DNA of 11,035 nt from Thermoplasmata archaeon. GTDB taxonomy: Archaea; Thermoplasmatota; Thermoplasmata; RBG-16-68-12. The notes below the pieces were generated by a model. The model saw nothing but the letters and a program-made list of their open reading frames with translations. It was not told where the DNA came from and did not search any database. The translations under genes were made by a program, and so were the position numbers. Positions 1 to 11,035 of this stretch are shown here, piece after piece. Numbering within the stretch: position 1 is the first letter of the stretch; the number at the start of each line of letters is the position of its first letter. The DNA lies in the NCBI GenBank assembly GCA_013329855.1, contig DUJI01000118.1:1048-12082 (forward strand), given 5' to 3'.

Positions 1-1060
1 TCAGCCGCGAGCCGTATCTTCGGAGATAACCCTGCAGCGTCCGACGGGTCCCGTCGTCCCACCGCCGCGCGGCCCCGGACGGATCCCGGGTCGCGAGCTC
101 GATGAGGTCCACCGCGGTGCCCAAGTCCTTCACCGAGACGATCTCCGCTTCCAGGCGATTCCGCGGCCCTTGGTTGTGGTAGTTGCCCAGGGGAATCGCT
201 ACACCGGTCGCCCGCCATCCGTACAGGCCCCATGGCGTGGCCTCGCATGTCCCCCCGGACATGAGCCAGCGCTGGACCGGCTTGGACTTCGGTAGTCTCG
301 AGCGCGCGGCGAGGAGCAGGCTTTCGGCCTGCGGGTCGAACGTCTTCCGGCGGTCGCCGACGCGGATGACCGGCCCTCCGCCGATCTCCACGCCCGGGAT
401 CGCCTTGCTGGCCTCCACGTTGATGATGATTGCGTTCCCCGGGATGGCCTCATCCTCGATGGCTCCGAGAGTGCCCACGAAGCCCTCCTCCTCGGCCCGC
501 GTTAGGAGGGCGTGGAGGTTCATCCGGCGATCAGCGCAGGCGCGGCTCATGGCGGCCAGGGACACGGAGGATCCCGCGAGGTCGTCGAGCTGGCGTGCGT
601 GGACGCGACCGTTCCGGACCGCGAAGTCCTCCAGCTCGAACGTCCCCATGTCATGGCGCCGCAGGCGGTCTACCTCGGGGGAGGATGCGAGACGGAACCG
701 GTAGGTCTTGGGGGAGTACCCGAGGACGCGGGCGGCGACGGGAAGCCCGTCGCGGTAGAAGCGCAGGCGGGTCCCCCTGCGAAAGTACGCAGGGGCAAGC
801 CCGCCGAGGAGGACGGCCTCCCGCTTCCCGACCATCTCGACGCCCGGGTGGTCCATGTGGGCCACGAGCCAGATCCCCGGCCCCTTCCGGCGCTGCGGCG
901 GGGAGATGCGCAGGTTTCCCCACCGGTCCCTCTGGACGCGGGCGCCGAACCCCTTCGCGATCTTCGTGGCCTCTGTGGCGACGCGGTCCTCGTGGAACGA
1001 GGTCGTGGGCTGCGTCGCAAGCCGTTCGAGGATCCGGACCACGCGGGGGATGCGGGCCAT
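1..1060 (-). CDS. M42/M20-like zinc metallopeptidase, C-terminus cut by window edge
   Basis: An uninterrupted reverse-strand frame runs from a Met codon at 1114 (or the preferred one at 1060) off the left edge, about 353-371 codons without a stop. Numbered from 1114, it shows the metal-ligand series of the MH clan: AHMDHPG (His86, Asp88), QLDDLAGSS (bridging Asp177 or 178), AEEEGFVG (general-base and ligand Glu208-210), INVEASK (Glu234) and GNYHN (His313). The order fits co-catalytic two-zinc aminopeptidases and glutamyl-aminopeptidase/endoglucanase-type M42 proteins; the flanking residues are divergent, so substrate is unknown and an M20 or M28 relative is possible. It has no signal peptide and is presumably cytoplasmic. 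I prefer Met19 (1060): a TTTA element lies 25-28 nt before it, family homology begins there, and it leaves room for the divergent neighbour. The 18-residue extension to 1114 looks non-conserved. Confidence 0.78.
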   Translation of the reverse strand, partial: MARIPRVVRILERLATQPTTSFHEDRVATEATKIAKGFGARVQRDRWGNLRISPPQRRKGPGIWLVAHMDHPGVEMVGKREAVLLGGLAPAYFRRGTRLRFYRDGLPVAARVLGYSPKTYRFRLASSPEVDRLRRHDMGTFELEDFAVRNGRVHARQLDDLAGSSVSLAAMSRACADRRMNLHALLTRAEEEGFVGTLGAIEDEAIPGNAIIINVEASKAIPGVEIGGGPVIRVGDRRKTFDPQAESLLLAARSRLPKSKPVQRWLMSGGTCEATPWGLYGWRATGVAIPLGNYHNQGPRNRLEAEIVSVKDLGTAVDLIELATRDPSGAARRWDDGTRRTLQGYLRRYGSRL

Positions 1061-1082
1061 GGACCCGGGGATGGTCCTTCGC

Positions 1083-1090
1083 GCTAAACG
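1083..1090 (-). promoter_or_regulatory. TATA-like element for the metallopeptidase
   Basis: On the reverse strand this reads CGTTTAGC, an AT island in GC-rich DNA, with TTTA at -28 to -25 from the Met codon at 1060. That spacing fits a leaderless archaeal transcript. It would lie inside the coding sequence if the 1114 start were used, so it also argues for the shorter protein. Confidence 0.4.
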
Positions 1091-1151
1091 GTTTGTCCTG
1101 CGCTCCTCGGCCATCGCTATGGTCAAGTAACCACAACCGGATCGGGATGGC

Positions 1152-1391
1152 ATGCAGATTGGATGCGGCGTCTACGTCCACGCGGTCCGCGGGCACCCCT
1201 ACCTCTACGTGTGGCATTACGAGACCACGGGCGGTCGGCGCCGGCAGGTGAAGGAGTACATGGGCGCCGCGGGACGCCAGGACATCCGGGAGGAGGCCAT
1301 CCGCCGCGTGGACGCGTACTTCCGGAGGGCGGCCCGGGACCTGGAGCGCCTGCGGAAGGAGACCCTGGCGTCCATCGCCCGCGGGCGGTAG
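1152..1391 (+). CDS. Small basic hypothetical protein, 79 aa
   Basis: I do not recognise a named family. The protein starts at the first ATG after an in-frame stop (1128-1130) and ends with TAG. Residues 13-40 hold an aromatic, probably beta-rich segment (PYLYVWHYETT, then RQVKEYMGAAG); residues 44-75 look like one long charged helix with many Arg, Glu and Leu. The aromatic-rich strand followed by a Lys/Gly turn and a helix recalls the short N-terminal DNA-binding modules of some archaeal integrases and transposases, but that is only a pattern resemblance. It is divergent from the metallopeptidase and convergent with dph2. An AAGTAA stretch at 1125-1130 is a weak promoter candidate and GGATGG before the ATG a weak ribosome site. 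The composition of the translated protein, unlike the Arg/Pro-rich shadow frames, is the main reason for calling it a gene. Confidence 0.5.
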   Translation: MQIGCGVYVHAVRGHPYLYVWHYETTGGRRRQVKEYMGAAGRQDIREEAIRRVDAYFRRAARDLERLRKETLASIARGR

Positions 1392-1424
1392 GCCGCGCGG
1401 TCGGGTGGGGCGTCTGGGGAAATC

Positions 1425-1440
1425 AACCTTAAATAAGGTT
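1425..1440. repeat. Perfect 16-bp AT-rich palindrome between convergent genes
   Basis: AACCTTAAATAAGGTT is a perfect inverted repeat (7-bp arms around AA) in otherwise very GC-rich DNA. It lies 33 nt after the stop of the 79-aa gene and 40 nt after the dph2 stop. It resembles a symmetrical TATA box or a dimeric-regulator site, but no gene starts nearby in either direction, so its role is unknown. Confidence 0.6.
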
Positions 1441-1452
1441 AACAAGTCCCTC

Positions 1453-1478
1453 GGGGCCGTGGGCCTTCCCACGGTCTC
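1453..1478 (+). terminator. GC-rich hairpin between convergent genes
   Basis: CCGTGGG, a CCTT loop and CCCACGG form a perfect 7-bp stem (1457-1474). On the plus-strand RNA it can extend to 11 bp using two G-U wobbles; on the minus-strand RNA those positions become A-C mismatches. The asymmetry suggests it serves the transcript of the 79-aa gene. No long T-run follows, so it may be a 3'-end stabiliser rather than a classical terminator. Confidence 0.4.
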
Positions 1479-1480
1479 CC

Positions 1481-2455
1481 TTAGTACGCGCGGATCTCAT
1501 CGAAGGCGTACGCCTCGGGTTTCCGCTCCCCGAGGACGATCTCGAACTCCTGCGGCGTGAGCATGGGCTGTTTATACTGGAGCACGTCCTCGATCGCGAT
1601 GCGCGGGCAGGCCGTGTTCACCCAGGCGTCCACGCGGTACCCTTCCAAGAACTCCGGGGACACGAGGTCCAGGAGGAAGAGGTTCGCCTGCCGCCCGTGT
1701 CTCTCCGCGAGCGCCTTCAAGTCCTTGGCCATGTCCATCCGGACCTGCCCATTCTTCTTGGACACGATGATCCCGAAGACCTTCGCGTCGTGCGCGCGAG
1801 CGATCGCGGCCCACCGTTGCCGCAGGACGCGATCCTTGAGGTCCGCCAGGTTCCGCGCGCTCCCCCGCTCGGGGTCCGCGATGACGATGGGCTTGTCTGT
1901 GAGGAAGGCCACGCCCAGGGGATGGAACTCCCCCGTGCCGATGTAGAGGTACCCGTCCACGTCGTTCACGACGGCCTCCGCGGTGTGGTAGTCGCATCCG
2001 AGGAGCTGGCCCGCGTACGCCACCCGCTTGTCCGGCTCGCCGATCCGAACCTCGTGGCCCGCCTTCTCCAGATGCTCCTGGATCCGGGGCAGCCAGCCGC
2101 GGAACTGGGTCGTCGTCAGGAGGCCGACACGCTTCGGGAGCATGGGCTCCGCGGCGTCCACGAAGGCCAACGAGGCGAGGGGCGGACCCGGGAGGTCGTA
2201 GAAGAACACCCGGTTGTACCGCAGGTGGGGCATGGGGGCGTGGCCCAGGTGGACGATGAGGTCCACGGGCATCTCCGCGATGTCGCAGGCGCCGAACGAT
2301 GGATCGGCGGACACGAGGCACGTGACGCCCGCCTTGGACTCGATCTCCTGGGCCAGCTCGACGGCCTTCGTGCGCAGGCCGACGGGGAACTGGAGGCCGA
2401 CCGTCTTCGCGTTGCGGCCCCGGATGACCTCAAGGAGCCGGTCCGTCTCGCTCAT
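1481..2455 (-). CDS. dph2: Diphthamide biosynthesis enzyme Dph2
   Basis: This 324-residue protein is the archaeal radical enzyme that transfers the 3-amino-3-carboxypropyl group of S-adenosylmethionine to a histidine of elongation factor 2, the first step of diphthamide synthesis. It is an unusual 4Fe-4S enzyme whose cluster is held by one Cys from each of three similar domains. All three are visible: Cys57 (FGACD), Cys154 (LLGCDYH) and Cys283 (NTACPRI). Other family-typical stretches are LQFPVGL near residue 21, YIGTGEFHPLG at 171-181 and a D-P-x-R turn near 194. Length matches archaeal Dph2, which acts as a homodimer. The frame stays open far upstream through rpl10e, but homology begins at the ATG at 2455 (MSETDRLL). 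No Shine-Dalgarno precedes it; a T-run lies about 30 nt upstream. It follows rpl10e on the same strand with a 53-nt gap, so they may be co-transcribed. Confidence 0.96.
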   Translation of the reverse strand: MSETDRLLEVIRGRNAKTVGLQFPVGLRTKAVELAQEIESKAGVTCLVSADPSFGACDIAEMPVDLIVHLGHAPMPHLRYNRVFFYDLPGPPLASLAFVDAAEPMLPKRVGLLTTTQFRGWLPRIQEHLEKAGHEVRIGEPDKRVAYAGQLLGCDYHTAEAVVNDVDGYLYIGTGEFHPLGVAFLTDKPIVIADPERGSARNLADLKDRVLRQRWAAIARAHDAKVFGIIVSKKNGQVRMDMAKDLKALAERHGRQANLFLLDLVSPEFLEGYRVDAWVNTACPRIAIEDVLQYKQPMLTPQEFEIVLGERKPEAYAFDEIRAY

Positions 2456-2483
2456 GGAGGGGAAGCAACGCTCGACGTGAGAG

Positions 2484-2488
2484 AAAAA
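2484..2488 (-). promoter_or_regulatory. T-run upstream of dph2, possible TATA variant
   Basis: The reverse strand carries AGTTTTTCTC with the five T at -33 to -29 from the dph2 ATG, in the rpl10e-dph2 gap. It may be a secondary promoter, or a U-rich termination signal for the rpl10e transcript, since archaeal termination is favoured by T-runs. Sequence alone does not decide. Confidence 0.35.
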
Positions 2489-2508
2489 CTTGTGCGTGGG
2501 CTTCCGGC

Positions 2509-3021
2509 TCACTTCTTCGGCTTCTCGCGTTCGACGACGATGCGCCAGGGCGTCGGCAGCTTGACGCCACCCTTGCGGAGGGCGATCTTGGCGTCCGCGA
2601 CGTGATCCTCGGTCGTCTCCAGGGTGAAGATCTTCGTCCCCGGGTGGACGCGCGCCGCGGTTCCGACGGGCTGGCCGAAGGCGGCTCGCATCCCTTCCGA
2701 GATACGGTCGGCTCCCGCGCCCGTGGCGATCTTGTTCTCCCGGAGCACGTTGTGCGGGTAGAGACGGAGCTTGAGGTGGTACGCGTTCCCCGCCTTCTTC
2801 GCGATGTACCGGTTCAGGGAGATGCGCGCGGCCTCGAGGGCGATGTGCCGGATCTGGCACTGCTCCTCCGCCACGAGGTGGAGCTTCACGGGGAAGTGGG
2901 CGCGCAGGTCGCCGATGTCGAACTGGCTGATCCGGATGGCGGGGACGCCGCCCATGTACTTCCGCTGGCTGTACGCCTGCCCACGGATCTCGCGGTACAT
3001 GCTTCCCGGCTTGCGCGTCAT
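2509..3021 (-). CDS. rpl10e: 50S ribosomal protein L10e (uL16)
   Basis: A 170-residue basic protein of the large ribosomal subunit, the archaeal/eukaryotic L10e counterpart of bacterial L16, which lies near the A-site tRNA and the central protuberance. Family signatures are the N-terminal RKPGSMYREI, YMGGVPAIRISQFDIGD at about 22-38, EAARISLNRYI at about 63-73, the central NVLRENKIATGAGADR at 91-106 and the conserved C-terminal segment with KIALRKGGVKLPTPWRI at about 145-161. Length is normal. The start at 3021 is the first Met in family alignment and is preceded by a good TATA box at the right spacing, with no Shine-Dalgarno, as expected for a leaderless or near-leaderless message. dph2 lies downstream on the same strand, which joins two functions centred on the ribosome and EF2. 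Confidence 0.98.
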   Translation of the reverse strand: MTRKPGSMYREIRGQAYSQRKYMGGVPAIRISQFDIGDLRAHFPVKLHLVAEEQCQIRHIALEAARISLNRYIAKKAGNAYHLKLRLYPHNVLRENKIATGAGADRISEGMRAAFGQPVGTAARVHPGTKIFTLETTEDHVADAKIALRKGGVKLPTPWRIVVEREKPKK

Positions 3022-3049
3022 GGTAGGGGCCGCTCCAAACGTGGGGCGC

Positions 3050-3057
3050 TATATAAT
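3050..3057 (-). promoter_or_regulatory. TATA box of rpl10e, possibly bidirectional
   Basis: The reverse strand reads ATTATATA, preceded by the purine-rich GAAGG (BRE-like), 28 nt before the rpl10e ATG. It is the clearest TATA box in the window. Read forward it is TATATAAT, 31 nt before the ATG at 3089 of the divergent membrane-protein gene, so one near-symmetrical element may drive both genes. Confidence 0.75.
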
Positions 3058-3088
3058 CCTTCGGGGCGAGGAGTCCGTCCGCCCCCAG

Positions 3089-3472
3089 ATGGGAGGCCTG
3101 TACGCAGGTTTCATCCTGCTCCAAGCCCATCGCGGGCGCGGTGGCCGGATGCAAACGGAAACCTCCCAGATGCTCGTCGTCTCCCTGCCTATGGTCCTGA
3201 TCCTGGGCTGGGCCGTCGCAGTCTTCCTCGCCGCGTACGGCGCCTGGAAGCGGAACCCCAGTCTCATGGGGCTGGGGCTCGGTGCCGTCGGCGGGATGAC
3301 CCTCGTGACGCCCCTGGCCTGGGATCTCTACGCCACCACGAGGCCCGACCTGTTCACAATCGGGTCGGGAGACCTTCTGATCCTGGCCTTCCTTGCGTTC
3401 CTGGGCGGAGGCGTACTCGCCACAGGCGTGGCCCTGCCCTCGTTGCGGCATTCCCCGGCGGCAAAACGTTAA
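3089..3472 (+). CDS. Small membrane protein with three predicted TM helices
   Basis: I do not recognise the family. From the ATG at 3089 the protein has 127 residues; from a second in-frame ATG at 3149 it has 107. Hydrophobic segments lie at about 28-51 (starting MLVVSLPMVLILGWAV), 59-81 and 95-118, separated by short loops (WKRNPS; TTRPD), with a basic C-terminus (SLRHSPAAKR). The positive loop after helix 1 suggests it faces the cytoplasm. The 3089 start is favoured because the shared TATA element at 3050-3057 sits about 31 nt upstream; the 3149 start is favoured by the lack of obvious conservation in the first 20 residues. The gene ends 29 nt before ipk on the same strand, so it could be the first gene of the isoprenoid operon, though a functional link is not shown. 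A TTAAGA overlapping its stop may give ipk its own promoter. Confidence 0.6.
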   Translation: MGGLYAGFILLQAHRGRGGRMQTETSQMLVVSLPMVLILGWAVAVFLAAYGAWKRNPSLMGLGLGAVGGMTLVTPLAWDLYATTRPDLFTIGSGDLLILAFLAFLGGGVLATGVALPSLRHSPAAKR

Positions 3473-3475
3473 GAG
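3469..3475 (+). promoter_or_regulatory. Weak TATA-like element before ipk
   Basis: TTAAGAG overlaps the TAA stop of the upstream membrane-protein gene and lies 26 nt before the ipk ATG, the spacing of a leaderless promoter. The match to the consensus is poor, and co-transcription from upstream is equally likely. Confidence 0.3.
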
Positions 3476-3501
3476 CGGGGCCATAGCTCGCCACGGCCGC
3501 C

Positions 3502-4278
3502 ATGCTCCTCGTGAAGCTCGGCGGCAGCATCCTCACGGACAAGGCGCGGCTCCGCACGCCGCGGAAGACGGCCATCGCACGGCTCACGAAGGAGCTCGCG
3601 GGACTCGGTGACGACCTCCTCGTGGTCCATGGCGCGGGGTCGTTCGGCCACGTGCTCGCGCGCAGGTACGCGCTGAACGGCCCGGCGAAGTCGACCAAGG
3701 CGAAGGGTGCCGCCGTGGTCCAGCGCGACGTTCGCACCTTGGACGCGTTCGTGATCGACGGGCTGCTCAAAGCGGGCCTGGCGCCCGTGGTCCTCCCGCC
3801 TTCGGCGGTCCTGGGTCTCGACGACGGCCGCGTGGTCTCCTTCGACGTGGCCGCGTTCCGTGACTACATCTATCAAGGCTTCACCCCCGTGACCTTCGGC
3901 GATGTCGTGCGCGACCGGACGCGGGGCGTGGCCGTGTGCTCCGGAGACATCCTCATGCTCGAACTCGCGAAGGCCTTCCACCCGCGGTCCGTCGTCTTCG
4001 CCGCGGATGTGGACGGTCTCTTCACCGCGGACCCCAAGCGGACGAGGGACGCGCAGCTTCTCCTTTCCGTCGGGCCGGCGGACCTCGCCCAGCTCGACCT
4101 CGGTCCCGCGAAGGGTGCCGACGTGACCGGCGGCATCGAGACCAAGGTCCGCCGGATGCTCGAGATCGCCTCCTTCGCGGACGAGACAATCATCGTCAAC
4201 GGTAACGTCAAGAACCGCGTCCGGGATGCCCTGCGGGGTCGCATCGTCATCGGCACCCGGGTCGTCGGAGGGCACTGA
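3502..4278 (+). CDS. ipk: Isopentenyl phosphate kinase
   Basis: A 258-residue amino-acid-kinase-fold enzyme that phosphorylates isopentenyl phosphate with ATP to give isopentenyl diphosphate, the last step of archaeal alternative mevalonate routes. Visible motifs are KLGGSILTDK at 5-14 (Lys5 and Lys14, phosphate contacts), HGAGSFGH at 43-50, where His50 is the substrate-binding catalytic histidine that separates this enzyme from glutamate-5-kinase and UMP kinase, SGDILMLELA at 147-156, AADVDGLFTADPK at 167-179 for nucleotide binding, and AKGADVTGGIETKV at 203-216 with Lys204. Length matches the family, and the start gives the normal MLLVKLGG N-terminus. It is followed after one nucleotide by the isomerase gene, which uses its product directly. 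The order ipk-fni-prenyl synthase is familiar in euryarchaea, so the assignment is firm. Confidence 0.96.
   Translation: MLLVKLGGSILTDKARLRTPRKTAIARLTKELAGLGDDLLVVHGAGSFGHVLARRYALNGPAKSTKAKGAAVVQRDVRTLDAFVIDGLLKAGLAPVVLPPSAVLGLDDGRVVSFDVAAFRDYIYQGFTPVTFGDVVRDRTRGVAVCSGDILMLELAKAFHPRSVVFAADVDGLFTADPKRTRDAQLLLSVGPADLAQLDLGPAKGADVTGGIETKVRRMLEIASFADETIIVNGNVKNRVRDALRGRIVIGTRVVGGH
4267..4272 (+). promoter_or_regulatory. Shine-Dalgarno site for fni
   Basis: GGAGGG inside the end of ipk lies 7 nt before the ATG at 4280. It fixes the fni start against an in-frame upstream ATG at 4226, and it shows that fni is translated by the leadered route from a transcript shared with ipk, unlike the leaderless first genes. 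Confidence 0.75.
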
Positions 4279-4279
4279 C

Positions 4280-5353
4280 ATGGCCGAACCGTCCAAGACG
4301 GAGCAGCGGAAGGCGGAGCACGTCAACATCATCCTGAACGAGGACGTGTCCGCGGGCTACGACTACTGGGGCGACGTCCACCTGCTCCACAGTGCGCTCC
4401 CCGAGCTCGACCTGGACGACATCGACCTCGCCGTCAAGCTCTTCGGCAAGCGCCTCGAGGCGCCGCTCGTCATCTCCTCCATGACCGGCGGCTTCGGCAT
4501 GGGCGGGGAGATCAACGCGAACTTGGCCCGCGCCGCCGCCGAGGTGGGCGTCGCCATGGGGGTCGGCTCCCAGCGCGCGGCCATCGAGAAGCCCGAGCTC
4601 GAGCCCACCTACGCGGTCGTCAAGGACCACGACGTGCCCCTCCTGTTCGCCAACCTGGGCGCGCCCCAGCTCATCCCGCAGGCCACGAAGCGTGCGTACG
4701 GCGTCGCGGACGCGAAGCGGGCCATGGACATGATCGGCGCGGATGCGCTCATCGTCCATCTCAACTTCCTCCAGGAGGTCGTCCAGCCCGAAGGGGACCG
4801 ACGCGCCAAGGGCTGCCTCGCCGCGATCAAGAACCTCGCGGCCCGCTTCCCCGTCATGGCCAAGGAGACGGGTGCGGGCATCTCTCGCGATGTGGCCGCG
4901 GCCCTCAAGAAGACCGGCGTCAAGGCGATCGACGTGGGCGGCCTGGGCGGCACCTCCTTCTCCGCCGTGGAGCACTACCGTGCACGGAAGGAGGCCTCGT
5001 CCCTCAAGGAGCGACTGGGCGCCACGTTCTGGGACTGGGGCATCCCGACACCCGCGTCGATCGTCCTCGCGAACGTCGGTCTGCCGATTGTCGCCACGGG
5101 CGGGGTGCGGAGCGGCCTGGACGCGGCCAAGGGCATTGCCCTGGGGGCCACCGCAGCCGGCATGGCGAAGCCCATGCTCGAGGCGGCCAAGGTCTCCTCG
5201 GACGCCGTGGTCGCCGAGCTGAAGGCGGTCATCGAAGAGCTGAAGGCCGCTATGTTCCTCACGGGCGCCTCCTCCGTCGCGGAGTTGCAGGAGCGGCACG
5301 CGATCATCAACGCGCCCACCGCGACGTGGATCGAACTCGCCGGGGAATCGTGA
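4280..5353 (+). CDS. fni: Type II isopentenyl-diphosphate delta-isomerase (FMN-dependent)
   Basis: A 357-residue TIM-barrel flavoenzyme that interconverts isopentenyl and dimethylallyl diphosphate with reduced FMN, supplying the allylic primer for the next gene's product. Motifs run in family order: RKAEHV (10-15, diphosphate-binding Arg), SSMTGG (66-71, FMN), GVGSQRAA (94-101), HLNFLQEVVQPEGD (160-173, with catalytic-site Asn162, Gln165 and Mg-binding Glu172), KETGAGIS (195-202), DVGGLGGTSFSAVE (218-231) and ATGGVRSGLDAAKGIALGA (272-290, FMN phosphate). The usual Pro of HLNPLQE is Phe here, which I take as lineage variation. The start at 4280 is chosen because of the Shine-Dalgarno 7 nt upstream and a one-nucleotide gap to the ipk stop. 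The neighbours make the pathway role secure. Confidence 0.97.
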   Translation: MAEPSKTEQRKAEHVNIILNEDVSAGYDYWGDVHLLHSALPELDLDDIDLAVKLFGKRLEAPLVISSMTGGFGMGGEINANLARAAAEVGVAMGVGSQRAAIEKPELEPTYAVVKDHDVPLLFANLGAPQLIPQATKRAYGVADAKRAMDMIGADALIVHLNFLQEVVQPEGDRRAKGCLAAIKNLAARFPVMAKETGAGISRDVAAALKKTGVKAIDVGGLGGTSFSAVEHYRARKEASSLKERLGATFWDWGIPTPASIVLANVGLPIVATGGVRSGLDAAKGIALGATAAGMAKPMLEAAKVSSDAVVAELKAVIEELKAAMFLTGASSVAELQERHAIINAPTATWIELAGES

Positions 5354-5357
5354 GCCG

Positions 5358-6476
5358 ATGACCGACTCCCCCGCGTCCGAGGTCGAGCGCCTCGAGCGAC
5401 TCCTGCGGCCTTACCGCGACGCGTGCAACGCGAACCTGCAGACCATGTGGGAGGAATTCCTCACCGCCCATCCCGTCGGGCGGTACCCGTCGACGAAGAC
5501 CATGTCGCGGAATGCGCGGCTCTTCCTCGCGGGGAAGCGGTATCGGTACGCGATTGCGCTGGCGGGATACCGTCTTCTCACGGGGGAGCCGCCCTCGGCC
5601 GCCTTGGAGCGCGCCGCCTGCTGGCTCGAGTGGTATCACCTGTACACCCTGTTCCTGGATGACATCATGGACGAGGACGAGCGGCGGCGCACGCTGCCCA
5701 GCGCGTGGTCGTCCAACGCGGCCCTGTACCGCCGCGAGGATGCGGACCGCCCCGCGGTCGTGTTCCGCACCCGGCGACACCGGTACGGCGCGTCCCAGGC
5801 CATCCTCGACGCCCTCCGCATCCGTTCCCTGGCCGAGCGTGCGATCGAGAGCCCCCGGGAGTTGGAGCCCTCCGTCCGCGTGGGGCTCCTGACCGAGCTA
5901 ACCGAGGTCGACTTGGTCCTGAGCGACGGCCAAGCCCTGGACGTCGATTTCGAGGGGCAGCGGCGCATCCCCGAGGAGGACTACGTCCGGATGAGCGAGG
6001 CGAAGACGGGTCGTCTCTACCTCGGAGCGGCAGGCACCGCGGCCATCGCCGCGGGGGCGCCCGTGGAGGTCCGCGAGGCCCTCCAGGAGTATGCCCTCCT
6101 GTTCGCCGTGGCCTTCCAGGATCGGGACGACCTCCTCGGCGCCGGCGTGGTCCCTTCGGAGATTGGCGGTTCGTCCGAAGGCGACATCCGCCAGGGCAAG
6201 CGCACCCGGATCTACGTCTTGGCGACCCAGGCGCTCAAGGGCCCAGACCGGACCGCCTTCCTGCGATCCTACGGCCGCGGCTCCCGGACCACGAAGCGCG
6301 ACCTCGAGACCGTGCGGTCCCTCCTCGCGCGCCACGTGCTTCCCCTCATGGAGATGCGGATCGAGAAGAACCTGGATCTCGCGCGCAAGGCCCTGGACCG
6401 TCTCCCGGCGAAGGATCCCGAGGCCCGCGCCCTCCTCGAGGTCCTGCTGGACGCCCAGCGGTCCCGGGTGCGCTAG
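5358..6476 (+). CDS. idsA: Short-chain prenyl diphosphate synthase (probably geranylgeranyl diphosphate synthase)
   Basis: A 372-residue all-helical trans-prenyltransferase that condenses IPP onto DMAPP and longer allylic diphosphates to make the precursor of archaeal lipid chains. Motifs: GKRYRY (59-64, the GKR IPP site), first Asp-rich motif DDIMD (101-105) followed by EDERRR, GQALDVD (191-197), KTGRLY (216-221), second Asp-rich region QDRDDLLG (254-261) and GDIRQGKRT (275-283). In the second motif the last Asp of DDxxD is Gly261, an uncommon change. Tyr96, five residues before the first motif, is an aromatic chain-length gate, which favours a C15-C20 product. It is somewhat longer than typical archaeal enzymes, with an extended N-terminus. 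It starts 4 nt after fni, so it is the third gene of the cassette. C20 specificity is inference; the family is certain. Confidence 0.93.
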   Translation: MTDSPASEVERLERLLRPYRDACNANLQTMWEEFLTAHPVGRYPSTKTMSRNARLFLAGKRYRYAIALAGYRLLTGEPPSAALERAACWLEWYHLYTLFLDDIMDEDERRRTLPSAWSSNAALYRREDADRPAVVFRTRRHRYGASQAILDALRIRSLAERAIESPRELEPSVRVGLLTELTEVDLVLSDGQALDVDFEGQRRIPEEDYVRMSEAKTGRLYLGAAGTAAIAAGAPVEVREALQEYALLFAVAFQDRDDLLGAGVVPSEIGGSSEGDIRQGKRTRIYVLATQALKGPDRTAFLRSYGRGSRTTKRDLETVRSLLARHVLPLMEMRIEKNLDLARKALDRLPAKDPEARALLEVLLDAQRSRVR

Positions 6477-7141
6477 TCCTCCAGGCCTCGGCCCGTGATC
6501 CGGAACGTCGCCCGGCTGCCCTCCTCCCGGTGGCGGTGCTTCTCCAGGACCGCGGCGCGCTGGCTCGGGCCCACCTTCTCGAACCGGATGATCGTCTTCG
6601 CGTTGTGGCTGAGCATGTGCCCGCCCAGGGGCATGTAGCGCCCCGTGTCGATGTCCGTGTACACCTGGGACGTCACGACCACGGGGATGCCGCGGGTGCG
6701 GGACACCTTGAGCAGGCGCGCGATCTGCCGCGTCAGGGAGTACCGCTCGTCCCGGCGCGTCTCGTCCCGCATGGTGAGGCGGTAGTGCATCGTGATGCTG
6801 TCGATGATGATCAGCCCGACCTCCGCGTTGCTCTCCGCAATCTTCACGGCCTTCTCGATGAGCGACTCCTGCTCCTCGAAGCTGTACGGTTCCGAGAAGA
6901 GGATGTTCTTCGCGACCACGTCGAAGTCGTCGCCGCAGATCTGGCGGAGGCGCTCCATGGACACGCCCTCCGTGTCGACGTAGATCACCTTGCGGCCCGC
7001 CCGCACCACGTTGCGGGCGAGCTGGAGGCAGAGGTTCGTCTTGCCGCTCCCCGCCTCCCCGTGGAGGAGGGTGATGCACCCGTCCTCGATCCCCCCACCC
7101 AGGAGCTCGTCCAGGGCGCGGCAGCCCAGGGCCACCTTCAT
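6473..7141 (-). CDS. radB: DNA repair and recombination protein RadB
   Basis: A 222-residue RecA-fold ATPase, the euryarchaeal RadA paralogue thought to assist recombination and replication-linked repair rather than to perform strand exchange by itself. It lacks the N-terminal helix-hairpin-helix domain of RadA and starts directly with the ATPase core, as RadB does. Walker A is GEAGSGKT (28-35); Walker B is LIIIDS (110-115). VVVTSQVYTD (155-164) and GGHMLSHNAKTIIRFEK (173-189) match the L2-like and C-terminal core segments of RadB and RadA. Length fits the family. The start gives the typical N-terminus with LGCRALDELLGGGIE at residues 5-19, and a TTAAA element lies 25-29 nt upstream inside the nmd3 stop region. 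Its stop shares a CTAG with the convergent prenyl-synthase gene. nmd3 lies 25 nt upstream on the same strand. Confidence 0.95.
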   Translation of the reverse strand: MKVALGCRALDELLGGGIEDGCITLLHGEAGSGKTNLCLQLARNVVRAGRKVIYVDTEGVSMERLRQICGDDFDVVAKNILFSEPYSFEEQESLIEKAVKIAESNAEVGLIIIDSITMHYRLTMRDETRRDERYSLTRQIARLLKVSRTRGIPVVVTSQVYTDIDTGRYMPLGGHMLSHNAKTIIRFEKVGPSQRAAVLEKHRHREEGSRATFRITGRGLED

Positions 7142-7162
7142 CGCTCGGGCAAGGGCGGGGCC

Positions 7163-7172
7163 GCCTTTAAGG
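7163..7172 (-). promoter_or_regulatory. TATA-like element of radB overlapping the nmd3 stop
   Basis: The reverse strand reads GCCTTAAAGG, with TTAAA at -29 to -25 from the radB ATG and containing the nmd3 TAA stop. The spacing fits leaderless transcription, so radB may be transcribed separately from nmd3. Confidence 0.5.
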
Positions 7173-8192
7173 CTTCGAGGGGATCGCCGGAAGGGCGGAC
7201 ACGTAGGCCTCGTCCGCGGTCCAGACGACGACCGCGCGGCCCGGTCTCACGCCCCGGCTCAGGACGGGCCGTTCCGCGCCCGAGTCCGGATGGGGCGCGA
7301 CGAGTCCGCCGCTCACGCCGGGGCGAATCTCCGTCTCGAACCGCTCCGCGTCGACCCGACGCAGGCCGCGCAGATCCTTCGCCTTGTACCGGCGCCGCTC
7401 GCCCGTGGCCAGGTTCCGCAGCTCGACGAAGGGGCGGAGGGAGAGGACCTCGGTCACCTCGGACTTGTGGCGGACCACATCGCCCACCTGGAACGCGGGA
7501 AGCCGCACGAGGGTCGTGACGCGGTAGATCTCCTTGCCCTGTCGCTGGCCGAACAGCTTGGGCGAGGCGGTGACCGAGCCGCCGAACGCCTCCGCGACTT
7601 CCTTCGCGAGCCGCGTCCCGAGGGCGTTCGTGCTCACGTAGAAGTCCAGGCCGCCGTGGATCTCCTCCGTCCGGGAGATGAAGTCGCCCGCCTCGTCGCG
7701 TCCGCGCTCCACGCGGGACAGCACGAGGGTCCGCACGCCGCGCATCTCCGCGGGCGTCAGGTCGCGGTCCTCCGCGCGCACCTGGAGGATGCCCTCGTAG
7801 TACCGGCCCGCCTGCTTCGCGCACGTGTCGCAGACGGACGGCTTGATCCGCAGCCGGACATGGAAATCCTGGACCTGGCGGAGATCCTCGAACCGCCCCG
7901 ACGCCTTCACCGTGAGGAAGAAGTTGTTCGCGTCCTCCTCGCGGGCCACGTGGGTGAACGTGACGTGCTCGAAGGGCGGCAGTGCGCGCACCTTCTCCCG
8001 GAGGAGCTGCGGAATCGCCAGGTCGAGTTCCACTCGGGACCACCCGGACCGGAAATGGAAGGCGCCGCATTGCGCGCATCGCGGCACGTCCAGGTTCGCG
8101 GGCGGCTCCACGACAGGGTGCTTCTTCGCGAAGCACGACCCGCACACGCCCTGATAGACGGGTCCCTCGGCCCCGCACTCGACGCAGAACAT
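7167..8192 (-). CDS. nmd3: NMD3 homologue, large-subunit ribosome biogenesis protein
   Basis: A 341-residue archaeal relative of the eukaryotic 60S export adaptor NMD3. Archaea have no nuclear export, so the role is presumably late maturation or quality control of the large ribosomal subunit. The N-terminus carries paired zinc-binding Cys motifs: CVEC (Cys3, Cys6), CGSC (Cys17, Cys20), CAQC (Cys39, Cys42) and CDTC (Cys121, Cys124), followed by the family segment YYEGILQVR at 131-139. Residues 176-240 (FISRTEEIHGGLDFYVST onward) match the central NMD3 domain, and the rest resembles its beta-rich C-terminal half. Archaeal forms lack the eukaryotic C-terminal localisation signals, and so does this one. 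The start at 8192 puts the first Cys at residue 3 and has a TATA-like element 28-35 nt upstream. It is divergent from a membrane-protein gene. Confidence 0.94.
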   Translation of the reverse strand: MFCVECGAEGPVYQGVCGSCFAKKHPVVEPPANLDVPRCAQCGAFHFRSGWSRVELDLAIPQLLREKVRALPPFEHVTFTHVAREEDANNFFLTVKASGRFEDLRQVQDFHVRLRIKPSVCDTCAKQAGRYYEGILQVRAEDRDLTPAEMRGVRTLVLSRVERGRDEAGDFISRTEEIHGGLDFYVSTNALGTRLAKEVAEAFGGSVTASPKLFGQRQGKEIYRVTTLVRLPAFQVGDVVRHKSEVTEVLSLRPFVELRNLATGERRRYKAKDLRGLRRVDAERFETEIRPGVSGGLVAPHPDSGAERPVLSRGVRPGRAVVVWTADEAYVSALPAIPSKP

Positions 8193-8219
8193 GACGGTGG
8201 GTTCGCAGCGGCCCGCGGC

Positions 8220-8227
8220 TACTTAAG
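8220..8227 (-). promoter_or_regulatory. TATA-like element of nmd3
   Basis: The reverse strand reads CTTAAGTA, ending 27 nt before the nmd3 ATG, in a GC-rich background. It shares the core TAAGTA with the divergent promoter at 8273-8280. Confidence 0.55.
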
Positions 8228-8272
8228 GGATGGCTATGCGGACCCGGACCGCCGATAGCGGCGTAGAAGTCC

Positions 8273-8280
8273 ATAAGTAT
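8273..8280 (+). promoter_or_regulatory. TATA-like element of the 183-aa membrane protein
   Basis: ATAAGTAT lies 26 nt before the ATG at 8307, the standard leaderless spacing. With 8220-8227 it forms a two-promoter divergent region of 114 nt. Confidence 0.6.
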
Positions 8281-8306
8281 CCGCTGCGACGTCGGCCCCC
8301 ATCTCC

Positions 8307-8858
8307 ATGCCGCGAGTGAAGTCCTGGTGGAGACTCAAGAAGACTCGCCACCGTGACGCCGTCGTCCTGTCCGTTATCTCGTCGGCCCTGCTGCTCGCAG
8401 GTCAGCTGCCCCTCCAGCAGGACCTCTACCAGGAGTACCTCCTCCCGGTCGTCCACGAACCGCTGGTGTTCGTCTTCGACGTGGTTCTCCTCATCCTCGC
8501 GTACACGAGCTACTTCGGCGGTATCCTCGTGCTCCTCGGAGGCGTCAACTTCCTGTGGGGGCAGGCGAGCCGTGGGCGGTTCCTGCTCTCCCTCGGGCTG
8601 GGCATCGGCTCCATCGGGCTCCTCAAGGAGCTCGCCCTGGCCGTGCTCTCGAGCTCGTCTCCCGTCTCGGTCATCGTCTACTTCGCGACGAGCCTCACGG
8701 GCCTCGGGCTGATCGTCGGGTGCGCGAGCTACGTTCTCATGCACGAGTACGCCCTCATGCTGAAGAAGCATGCCAAGAGCATGTGGCGGCAGTGGCGCCG
8801 CGTCCGGCGTCCGCGGTCCGTGCGGCGCCGGTTCCGCGGATCCGCGAACGCCCGATGA
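8307..8858 (+). CDS. Multi-pass membrane protein with Arg-rich cytoplasmic tail, 183 aa
   Basis: No named family is recognised. The basic N-terminus (MPRVKSWWRLKKTRHR) precedes a hydrophobic helix at about 18-36, a long hydrophobic stretch at 52-84 that could be two helices joined by YFGG, a helix at 92-114 and another at 119-145. The tail at 153-183 has about a dozen Arg and Lys residues and could bind nucleic acid, ribosomes or acidic lipid head groups. The positive-inside rule puts both ends in the cytoplasm if there are four helices. The ATG at 8307 has a TATA-like element 26 nt upstream and no Shine-Dalgarno, so the start is well supported. It is divergent from nmd3 and convergent with the small membrane protein at 8887. 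A link to ribosome biogenesis or membrane-bound translation is speculation from the neighbours and the tail. Confidence 0.75.
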   Translation: MPRVKSWWRLKKTRHRDAVVLSVISSALLLAGQLPLQQDLYQEYLLPVVHEPLVFVFDVVLLILAYTSYFGGILVLLGGVNFLWGQASRGRFLLSLGLGIGSIGLLKELALAVLSSSSPVSVIVYFATSLTGLGLIVGCASYVLMHEYALMLKKHAKSMWRQWRRVRRPRSVRRRFRGSANAR

Positions 8859-8886
8859 GGGACGCGGTCCGCCGCCATGGCCGGGC

Positions 8887-9054
8887 TTAGAGCCTCGCGA
8901 TGGTCCATCCGATCCAGGCGACCAGGGCGAGGGCGGCGAGGACGAAGGCGATCCCGATGGCCCACTCGCCCGCCGCGGGCGGCGTGGGAGCAGATGGCGG
9001 AGCCGCGGCGTGCACAGGCTCCTCGACGTGGTCCGCTGCAGCGGCGTCACGCAT
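8887..9054 (-). CDS. Small single-pass membrane protein, C-terminal anchor type
   Basis: A 55-residue protein from the ATG at 9054: an acidic, Ala/Pro-rich soluble segment (MRDAAAADHVEEP, then a Pro-rich linker) and one C-terminal transmembrane helix from about residue 32, including IGIAFVLAALALVAW, ending TIARL. That is tail-anchored topology, recalling small translocon or complex-assembly subunits, but it lacks the Sec61-beta signature and I assign no function. Two starts compete. A T-run at -30 to -26 from 9054 fits a leaderless promoter. A GTG at 9105 would overlap the DUF424 stop as GTGA, the classic coupling arrangement, adding 17 strongly basic residues. An AGGAGG directly abutting the 9054 ATG is too close to act as a normal Shine-Dalgarno. 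The frame is short, but its clean hydrophobic helix supports a real gene. Confidence 0.5.
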   Translation of the reverse strand: MRDAAAADHVEEPVHAAAPPSAPTPPAAGEWAIGIAFVLAALALVAWIGWTIARL

Positions 9055-9101
9055 CCTCCTCGCGAAGGACGTGGGCCGGAAAAACCTTCGCAGGAACGGG
9101 C

Positions 9102-9401
9102 TCACTCCATCATCATGACGTACTGGGCGTGGGGGACGCCCCCGATCCAGAGGATCGCCTCGTCGCTCACGAAGCCGCCCCTCTTGGCCGCCTCGACCGT
9201 CTCACGGCCGACGAAGTTCCCGATGCTCGCCAGCTTCAGGTGGTCCACGAGGCCCTCCTCGGTGACCCGATCGCCCTCGTAGAACTTGCCCACCTCGATC
9301 TTGAATTTCCCCTCGCGGAAGGTCTTGCCCAGGAGGTCCTCGTCCGCCGCGGCGACCAGGGTCTCCTTCCCCTGGCTGTAGACCTTCATCCGGATGGCCA
9401 T
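9102..9401 (-). CDS. DUF424 family protein, archaeal
   Basis: A 99-residue protein of the archaea-specific DUF424 family, whose biochemical role is not established. Characteristic features are the start MKVYSQG (residues 5-11), DEDLLGKTFREGKFKIEV at 20-37, the EEGLVDHLKLASIGNFVG stretch at 48-65 and the conserved near-C-terminal ILWIGGVPHAQ at 83-93. Family members are small and are often found near translation or replication genes; here the gene follows mcm by 43 nt on the same strand. The start at 9401 is chosen over Met5 (9389) because a CCTTTAGG element lies about 30 nt upstream. The stop TGA overlaps a possible GTG start of the next gene. Confidence 0.93.
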   Translation of the reverse strand: MAIRMKVYSQGKETLVAAADEDLLGKTFREGKFKIEVGKFYEGDRVTEEGLVDHLKLASIGNFVGRETVEAAKRGGFVSDEAILWIGGVPHAQYVMMME

Positions 9402-9444: not shown

Positions 9445-11035
9445 CTACAGCCGCTCCACGAGCTTGTACTTGTTCTTCGCGGGGCTGTAGATCTCCCCTT
9501 CCTGGGACCACCGCTTGAGCCAGGAGTCCACCTTGGCGGGCGGGATCCCGCGTTCCTGGGCGATGCGGACGATGTCCTCGTAGTCCGCGACGCCGTCGGG
9601 ACCCGCGAGCTCGCTGATGATGTCCCGAAGGGAGATGATCTGCTCGCGCTGGGACTGGCTGATGCCCGTCTGGACGATGTCGATGTCGAACTTCCCTTCT
9701 TCGCCCGCAACCTTGCCCATCCAGTACTCCACGATGCGCACCGCGCGCTCCGCGTCGTCGATGCTGACCTCGTTGCTCAGCCGGAGGCGGGCGCTCGCCT
9801 CGGAGAGTCGGATGATCGCCTCGAGCTGCCGCGGCGTGATCGGGACGCTCGACCCTGCGCCTTCTCCGGTCTTGCGAATCTCCAGGTACTTCTTCTCGAT
9901 CGCCGCCATGGCCTCGTCCGTCATCACAGGGTAGATGCGCTTCGCGTACGCGACGTACTTGCGCAGGAAGTCGGGGTTGAAGTGCGGCGTATAGGGCTCC
10001 TCGAGTGTACCCGTCTCCGCAGTCGCGAGGCCCGCCTCGCGTCGCTTCATGAGCTCGCCCACCTGGTGTCCCTTGAGGACGTGCTCTGCAAGCTCGCGGT
10101 CCCTCTCGGCTTGGGGCCGATCGATCATCGAGAAGATGATGTCGAATCGACTCAACAGCGCTGGCGGCAAATCCAGTTGTTCAGAAATGTATTTGCGTTC
10201 ATCGAAGCGGCCGAACTTCGGATTGGCCGCAGCGAGCACTGCGCACCGCGACTGGAGGACCGCGGTGATTCCCGCCTTCGCGACGCTGATTCTCTGTTGC
10301 TCCATGGCCTCGTGGATCGCGGAGCGGTCCTGCGGATTCATCTTCTCGATTTCGTCGATGCAGTTGTGCACAACCACGCCATCGCACACAAAGTTGCTAT
10401 CACCAGGCACCCGGAGGTCGTACACATACCCGTCGTGCTCTTCGACCCGAACCTGGACGATTCGGTCCAAGGCGTAGTCGTACCCCGTCAACGACTCGAG
10501 ACGCCGGCGGTCATCTGGGCTCAGCCAAGGGTCCACCGCCTTTGCGAGCTTGGAGAGCGTCGGTTTGAAGGGTCTCCGGTTCGCGTGGGCCAGGTCGTGG
10601 AGCTGGCTCCAGAAGGTCTTGTTCAGGAGCCTCCAGGGCTTTGGCCTAACCCCCGCCAGGATGGCGGAGACCGGTGCCACCGGCACCTCCTCGTGTTCCG
10701 CGGGCTGGAGAGCATGGGCCTGCGGTATCGTCTTCGACTTGACAGAATAGGGAGCCATCGCCTCCAGGAGTCGCTGAGCGTCGTCCCGAGCACTCACTTG
10801 GACGATGAGCACGTTGCGCCCTTCCCTGATGCGGGCGAAGACATCGAACCGGCGAAGTGCATACAGCAGGCGCTGATTGGCCTTCCGACGCGGTGAGAAC
10901 ACGAACTGGAGCTCGACGGCCTCGTAGGTCCTGCCGCGGGATTCCGACCGCTTGATTGAGATGCAGCCGTCCGCATCCATGAGCCCGGCCAGGAAGCCGC
11001 GCAGGGCTGCATCGTCGAGCTTGGTCAGGTTCTCG
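9445..11035 (-). CDS. mcm: Replicative helicase MCM, C-terminal part, interrupted by an intein
   Basis: The gene enters from the right edge already inside an intein (10363-11035) and continues as a 305-residue C-extein (9445-10362). MCM is the hexameric 3'-5' helicase that unwinds DNA at archaeal replication forks. Counting the extein Cys as residue 1: Walker B IDE (2-4) in CIDEIEKM, the pre-sensor hairpin with Lys29 (AKAGI), sensor 1 AAANP (44-48, Asn47), arginine finger LSRFD (Arg72), sensor 2 TPRQLEAIIRLSEA (177-190), and a C-terminal winged helix at about 240-305 ending KYKLVERL. The N-terminal DNA-binding domain and Walker A are outside the window. The extein is colinear with archaeal MCM, so a spliced protein should be active. 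The codon choice at 10147-10200 is unusual (AAA, ATT, TCT, CAA, TTG, AGT). Confidence 0.97.
   Translation of the reverse strand, partial: ENLTKLDDAALRGFLAGLMDADGCISIKRSESRGRTYEAVELQFVFSPRRKANQRLLYALRRFDVFARIREGRNVLIVQVSARDDAQRLLEAMAPYSVKSKTIPQAHALQPAEHEEVPVAPVSAILAGVRPKPWRLLNKTFWSQLHDLAHANRRPFKPTLSKLAKAVDPWLSPDDRRRLESLTGYDYALDRIVQVRVEEHDGYVYDLRVPGDSNFVCDGVVVHNCIDEIEKMNPQDRSAIHEAMEQQRISVAKAGITAVLQSRCAVLAAANPKFGRFDERKYISEQLDLPPALLSRFDIIFSMIDRPQAERDRELAEHVLKGHQVGELMKRREAGLATAETGTLEEPYTPHFNPDFLRKYVAYAKRIYPVMTDEAMAAIEKKYLEIRKTGEGAGSSVPITPRQLEAIIRLSEASARLRLSNEVSIDDAERAVRIVEYWMGKVAGEEGKFDIDIVQTGISQSQREQIISLRDIISELAGPDGVADYEDIVRIAQERGIPPAKVDSWLKRWSQEGEIYSPAKNKYKLVERL
10363..11035 (-). mobile_element. 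Intein with LAGLIDADG homing endonuclease in MCM Walker B, N-terminus beyond the edge
   Basis: A protein-splicing element is inserted in frame before the Cys of CIDEIEKM. Its C-terminal splicing blocks are intact: block F with VYDLRVP at 10425-10405 and NFVCDG, block G VVVHN, penultimate His, terminal Asn (10363-10365) and Cys as +1 nucleophile. Cys+1 and His-Asn are the residues needed for branching and Asn cyclisation. A LAGLIDADG-type motif reading LAGLMDADG is visible at 10966-10992, about 200 residues before the C-terminus; it supplies a metal-binding acidic residue of the homing endonuclease. Whether it is the first or second copy of the motif, and whether the other copy and the N-terminal splicing blocks (A, B) survive, cannot be seen. 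Inteins in archaeal MCM are known; I cannot say from memory which allele matches this site. Confidence 0.95.
10966..10992 (-). other. LAGLIDADG endonuclease motif of the intein
   Basis: Translated on the reverse strand this is LAGLMDADG, preceded by LRGF and followed by CISIK. Only the usual Ile is changed (to Met) and the catalytic-type Asp residues are kept, so endonuclease function is possible. A start-codon-based frame would begin inside the motif at 10980; the frame is actually open to the window edge. Confidence 0.9.

Follow-up and report, generated by a model that had tools for sequence, protein, structure and literature searches.

The 11,035-nucleotide stretch of Thermoplasmata archaeon DNA analysed here (contig DUJI01000118.1, positions 1,048 to 12,082; hereafter the window) ends inside an intein that interrupts mcm, the gene of the replicative helicase MCM, in the Walker B motif. 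This raises the question of whether the element is a living homing intein, a remnant or, as a preliminary description of the window had proposed, a redox- or DNA-sensitive switch of replication, and of how it comes to occupy this site. Taken as a whole, the data are very probably best explained by a full-length class 1 LAGLIDADG homing intein, inserted between the Ala and the Cys of Walker B, which homes and then decays and which in Thermococcales is copied together with the codons that touch it. The intein itself is ordinary and sits at a little-described site; the import of a codon is the point of interest.

The interrupted mcm gene and its intein

The open frame concerned lies on the minus strand, as do all features of mcm given below, and encodes 529 residues, not counting the stop (11034..9445), the C-terminal half of the intein running into MCM with no stop codon in between. 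The intein part comprises its last 224 residues (312-535; 10363..11034), delimited by the open frame, the junctions, the join described below and the database protein P0007. It ends in His-Asn (10368-10363, with the Asn codon at 10365-10363), followed by the TGC codon of the first host residue, the +1 Cys (10360..10362), which would be the splicing nucleophile and, once the protein is spliced, a Walker B residue of the helicase. The MCM C-extein, from CIDE to the stop (9445..10362; stop codon 9447-9445), contains the remaining AAA+ domain, the lid and the C-terminal domain. It matches Pfam MCM (PF00493, profile positions 126-224, E 2e-43) right after the splice junction, and MCM domains are also found in P0007. 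The insertion site, LGLA/CIDE, falls within the hydrophobic Walker B strand and precedes Asp-Glu by two residues. The frame and the junctions (HN/C at 10368-10360) bear out the earlier placement of the intein exactly at Walker B, with His-Asn/Cys immediately before CIDE.

Window base 11035 is the end of the contig (C52, 12082). The rest of the gene was found on contig C70 of the same genome, which overlaps C52 by 251 bp with a single mismatch (CTT/CTG, read as synonymous). C70 encodes, in this order, the MCM N-terminal domains, Walker A, a 652-residue intein after AAGL, 29 extein residues and residues 1-311 of the Walker B intein, which starts at C70:3520. Counted from the first ATG, the joined frame has 1930 residues; the inteins occupy 410-1061 and 1091-1625, and 743 residues of MCM are left after in-script removal of both. 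P0007, a protein of 1910 residues encoded on a 13.4-kb contig, is an uninterrupted version of this precursor in which 4 of the 1910 residues are different from those of the joined frame. The N-terminal splicing blocks and the upstream MCM exon, which the preliminary description had wanted sought beyond 11035, are both on C70 in an unshifted frame; because they exist, the absences and frameshifts that it had named as marks of a dead remnant were not encountered.

The complete intein has 535 residues. It begins with Cys (CLHPDAEV, on C70), as do 95 of the 96 inteins extracted at the Walker B site, and has TPDH as its block B TxxH motif, T86 and H89 being invariant in an alignment of 12 rows. It ends with splicing blocks F and G (VYDLRVPGDSNFVCDGVVVHN, 10363..10425, aligned with 11 orthologues), HN being present in 96/96. 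The insert is in frame in a conserved host protein that is complete without it, intein-free relatives exist, and the insert has the HINT fold expected of a class 1 intein. Its endonuclease carries the LAGLIDADG fold and two LAGLIDADG motifs, LLGFICGDG at intein residue 223 (on C70) and LAGLMDADG in the window (10966..10992); the latter and HN/C agree with the intact motif and C-terminal splicing residues reported earlier. Pfam families PF14890 and PF14528 were matched in P0007 and in the orthologue of G030, a genome of the same genus. The structure model of a 72%-identical relative resembles known intein-endonuclease structures; PI-PkoII and TliVMA (the latter a VMA intein by its title) share 17-19% identity and belong to other host proteins. 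The ratio of nonsynonymous to synonymous substitution rates (dN/dS) was 0.13, 0.11, 0.11, 0.16, and 0.20 for the endonuclease region in five pairs and 0.12, 0.13, saturated, 0.19, and 0.17 for the splicing parts of the same pairs, values that are rough because synonymous divergence is high. By these sequence features the Walker B insert is to be regarded as a canonical class 1 homing intein and not as a remnant.

After translation, Cys1 would attack, the chain would be transferred to the +1 Cys, and cyclisation of Asn would excise the intein and join the halves of MCM. Walker B is interrupted before splicing, and the precursor should therefore lack helicase activity. The earlier statement that this activity awaits splicing agrees with the position of the insertion and is retained here as an expectation. 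The 652-residue intein, which would be a second and independent one, lies 29 extein residues upstream at the published MCM-b site (G000:C70 1477-3432, locus L004); it is full-length, with two LAGLIDADG-like motifs and an HN/T end.

A comparison of the insertion site with published MCM intein alleles, as had been suggested, indicated that it is distinct. According to excerpts of the papers cited here and below, haloarchaeal MCM inteins are inserted after Hvo residues 335, 362, 401, and 415 (PMC3972481) and those of Pyrococcus at Walker A and at a second site 27 residues further on (PMC5296750, PMC6801210). With a haloarchaeal MCM as a stand-in for Hvo, the Walker B site maps to 392/393 and, by this proxy position, coincides with none of the published MCM/CDC21 alleles a-d. 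CDC21 sites a-c are named without coordinates in an older InBase count (PMC2814812), and the Walker B site may have had an earlier label. No description of a Walker B MCM intein site was found in the portions of the open-licence literature that were searched. Thermococcus sequences bearing this intein have long been public. The known inteins a-d of haloarchaea and a/b of Pyrococcus likewise have mcm as host and the AAA+ domain as target, with a LAGLIDADG endonuclease in many (PMC10643990, PMC3972481, PMC5296750, PMC6801210, PMC4071816). In the same papers, likewise, one gene may carry several inteins, both mini and full forms occur, and the distribution is patchy. The TerL1-e intein of mycobacteriophage terminases also lies within a Walker B motif (PMC5050341), in a different host protein; it is likened here by its description, not by sequence.

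Occurrence and turnover

The Walker B site is occupied in 11 of the 37 genomes of the window's order, ten being recognised by both junctions and G028 by C-terminal fragments; two genomes of the order (G006 and G008) gave no MCM-level match. Within the window's genus, 7 of 19 genomes are occupied. The search of the phylum covered 389 genomes, of which 41, chosen by best E-values among the matches listed, were given a second look. At least four further occupied genomes (G046, G250, G332, and G340) were found among these 41, a lower bound because of this selection. A protein search with the G030 intein yielded 88 proteins, 87 of them with a long insert at the Walker B extein position. Among loci of named genomes, C[ILV]DE directly follows His-Asn in 25/41, and the N-side junction was also read in 21 (L105 not among them). 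Titles of these genomes refer to Euryarchaeota/Thermoplasmatota, Bathyarchaeota, Baldrarchaeota, Wukongarchaeum, Hermodarchaeota, Woesearchaeota, Micrarchaeota, Diapherotrites, and Thermococcus. None of the 15 viral loci whose flanks were read (23 found) is at the Walker B MCM site.

Intein-free mcm genes, which the preliminary description had recommended looking for, are numerous among relatives, including many with exteins of 94-99% identity. A tree of 33 exteins of the window's order requires at least 9 occupancy changes (G029 and G011 being unreliable long rows). In the close set, 18 of 120 MCM proteins are occupied and at least 16 changes are needed on 112 exteins. P0027 (535-residue intein), P0169 (161 residues), and P0166 (empty) have exteins that are 98.9-99.3% identical. 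Ten of the 96 extracted inteins are shorter than 300 residues, or nine without one alignment artefact. We interpret this occupancy pattern as that of a homing cycle: judging from distribution and conservation, the endonuclease would cut intein-free mcm at the Walker B site and the element would be copied in by recombination, later to decay to a mini-intein devoid of the homing endonuclease, or to be lost. These signs of recent mobility, together with the LAGLIDADG domain recognised by Pfam and by fold, speak for the live or recently live element that had been suspected.

Four inteins occur together (Walker A, b, Walker B, and d) in the mcm of G340 (L045) and in Thermococcus P0050, P0052-P0054, and P0057. 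At MCM extein position 379/380 (e.g. L021, L022, and P0043-P0047), some inteins split Walker A at GDPG/TAKS, with Thr at +1, three residues ahead of the usual K/S site. At the MCM-d place, after extein residue 461, the inteins of L045 and L046 (G340 and G278) end in CGN/T, the usual penultimate His being missing, and in L112 (uncultured Halobacteria) the insert at the d place seems to start with Ser (LEQQ/SYHPDEEILLADG).

The codons that touch the insertion

The evidence for copying of host codons comes from Thermococcales. Among 107 exteins of this order, the +1 residue is Cys in 39/39 occupied ones; in the 68 empty ones it is Leu (58), Met (7) or Cys (3: P0264, P0275, and P0251, whose sequence breaks off at this position). 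The tree requires at least 27 occupancy changes and 28 changes between Cys and another residue, and 15 of 16 independent pairs differ in the same direction, none in the opposite one and one not at all (median p 6e-5). The exteins of T. aciditolerans (empty, Leu) and T. celericrescens (157-residue intein, Cys) differ at 1 of 678 residues, which is the +1 residue itself. Eight near-identical pairs (exteins 99.1-99.9% identical) were listed. In seven of them the intein and L439C occur together; both members of the eighth (P0275/P0054) have Cys, and their only two differences in 681 residues are 4 and 2 residues before the insertion.

Further evidence was obtained at the DNA level in Thermococcaceae, where 61 genomes were searched, 58 matched and 48 were read, ten empty ones being left out. 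The +1 codon is TGC or TGT in 18/18 occupied genomes; in the 30 empty genomes it is a Leu codon (28), TGC (1) or ATG (1). In the main clade, with 14 occupied and 29 empty genomes, TGC at +1 is linked to occupancy (p 5e-9), and so is a synonymous preference in the codon before the insertion, which is GCC in 13/14 occupied vs 7/29 empty genomes (p 3e-5). Elsewhere between codons -6 and +7, the smallest of the eleven p values belongs to codon +6 (0.039, uncorrected) and the remaining ten are ≥0.16; these 13-codon Fisher tests take no account of relatedness, the neighbouring codons serving as control. Signs of a longer DNA tract were sought in third-position diversity near the site; alleles with the intein show no clear reduction. 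Sites a, b, and d of Thermococcales have the same +1 residues whether or not an intein is present (Ser, Thr, and Thr/Ser, respectively), apart from one Lys and a single gap in empty d alleles.

These comparisons are most simply explained if the codons that touch the insertion are copied together with the intein during homing. In an allele without Cys, homing would then replace the +1 codon, so that the mobile unit would be the intein plus flanking codons and would leave a one-residue mark in Walker B; we consider it likely that this is the rule in Thermococcales. There the copied unit would include at least the two codons that touch the insertion, so that on its arrival Leu would give way to the Cys on which splicing depends. 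The mark on the replicative helicase would perhaps be Ala to Cys in the window's order. Intein-free Thermococcales MCMs with Cys at +1 were also observed (P0264 from T. aggregans, P0275, and locus L238); they are possible scars of intein loss.

A similar event, co-conversion of the +1 codon from Pro to Ser at a low rate, has been proposed for the MCM-d intein of Haloferacales, where occupied alleles likewise have a +1 nucleophile and empty ones mostly a non-splicing residue (PMC10643990). While that event is rare and concerns a variable loop, the change at the Walker B site of Thermococcales concerns 39/39 occupied alleles and a Walker B residue (Leu to Cys). In haloarchaea, the residue equivalent to +1 at the Walker B site is Ala, unlike the Cys of the window. 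If co-conversion is correct, the target of an intein need not already have Cys, Ser or Thr, and by changing the codon that follows, here within a catalytic motif of the replicative helicase, the element can extend the range of hosts open to it. The +1 residue of empty alleles would then be a simple marker of past invasion or loss, and the permanent change of host proteins by inteins would become directly testable in culturable Thermococcus.

The window's own order is less uniform. In the close set the +1 residue is Cys in 18/18 occupied alleles and, in empty ones, Cys (56), Ala (38), Met (2), Ser (1), Leu (1) or unread (4); of 11 pairs of the order, 3.9 differ in the same way, 0 in the opposite one and 7.1 show no difference. 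The +1 Cys thus appears to be often a host residue in this order. When the tree of the close set is built from full exteins, the +1 column undergoes 17 changes, the most among columns 401-467 (next 15 and 11); with the AAA domain alone it undergoes 14 and ranks 23 of 228 columns. The control families f8, f10, and f37 show 0 (25 rows), 2 (25 rows), and 0 (22 rows) changes on trees of length 3.75, 3.17, and 2.15, compared with 14 changes over 7.82 in the window's order, the control rows being the best-scoring uninterrupted matches among those listed, a choice that favours conserved sequences. The turnover is a weak hint that co-conversion or escape from invasion may be at work. Escape, meaning a change from Cys to Ala that resists invasion, was set aside in view of the AAA-domain rank and the non-significant pairs of the order, and it is not claimed because of the way in which the control rows were chosen.

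Alternative explanations and other features

That the mcm of the window is an assembly chimera of two mcm genes could be suspected from its split over two contigs with one mismatch per 251 bp and from the several mcm fragments in other bins of the genus (G015 and G028). We hold this to be extremely improbable, since P0007 is uninterrupted with so few differences and G030 carries an identical pair of inteins on a single contig; an assembly artefact was rejected on the basis of the overlap, the joined frame, and P0007. Somewhat less remote, though still improbable, is a dead or domesticated remnant that is no longer mobile. Endonuclease-less mini-inteins are indeed known at the Walker B site, but the copy in the window has both LAGLIDADG motifs, an intact frame and a constrained endonuclease region, and occupancy changes frequently among near-identical exteins. 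This explanation was rejected on the strength of the complete joined frame with all blocks and its agreement with P0007.

The import of a codon has itself to be weighed against settlement of the intein only in alleles that already have Cys at +1. On the tree of the window's order, 54 of the 92 empty alleles that could be read indeed have Cys, as does every control row sampled from families f8 and f37, and sites a, b, and d share Ser/Thr at +1 in nearly all occupied and empty Thermococcales alleles. We nevertheless find this unlikely: 65/68 empty Thermococcales alleles have Leu or Met and 3 have Cys (one cut short), L439C arrives together with the intein in 7/8 listed pairs, and a synonymous preference in the codon preceding the insertion goes with occupancy as well. 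Less probable again, and about as doubtful as a remnant or slightly more so, is the post-translational switch, in which oxidation (pairing the block F Cys, codon 10384..10386, with Cys1 or the +1 Cys) or DNA binding would control splicing and hence replication. Disulphide control has been reported for the P. abyssi (Pyrococcus abyssi) PolII intein (PMC5874633), and the block F Cys is kept in 35/35 nearest relatives (P0001-P0035) and in orthologues of 43-72% identity. Against this, block F has Cys in 48 of the 96 inteins at the site, Ala in 40, and Ser (4), Thr (2) or Val (2) in 8. Ala is found in 25/26 inteins with a Thermococcus-type start and also in the same-family orthologues G012 and G015b, and the NFVC motif recurs in viral (phage) inteins with Ser or Thr at +1 (6 of the 15 flank-read loci). 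The other proposed redox residue, the +1 Cys, is the splicing nucleophile, which every such intein needs. Many relatives of 94-99% extein identity are intein-free, and the switch is therefore not needed for viability. A search for a conserved Cys pair found the block F position variable, and the switch was rejected as the leading reading. The block F data do not support a Cys pair dedicated to control, although this Cys may have a lineage-specific role, and conditional splicing is unsupported rather than refuted.

Several points weigh against the homing intein with co-copied codons that we favour. Within the window's order, +1 Cys is not significantly associated with occupancy (median p 0.125, 11 pairs), since Cys is also present in many of its empty alleles. 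For the inteins, synonymous divergence (dS) is saturated or lies at about 1-2.5, which makes the dN/dS values rough. The join, supported by P0007, spans a contig gap with one overlap mismatch in a genome bin (1.71 Mb, 315 contigs) that is 65% complete, and each 90%-identity cluster representative stands for several sequences.

The bins G015 (L012 and L013) and G028 (L016-L018) each contain several differing mcm fragments, occupied and empty, which are probably due to mixed strains or contamination. The rest of the window (1-9401) has ordinary euryarchaeal genes. Pfam recognised an M42 peptidase, diphthamide synthesis, ribosomal L10e, a polyprenyl synthetase, NMD3, DUF424, an amino acid kinase family protein (likely isopentenyl phosphate kinase), a flavin mononucleotide (FMN)-dependent enzyme (likely type 2 isopentenyl diphosphate (IPP) isomerase), and a Rad51 family protein, likely RadB; 8307-8855 (plus strand) had no family match in Pfam. 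Three further inteins were observed in the source genome, on contigs C59, C30, and C282 of G000 (L210, L213, and L215), and by reading of their flanks their hosts would be A-type ATPase subunit A (at Walker A), GyrB, and RadA.
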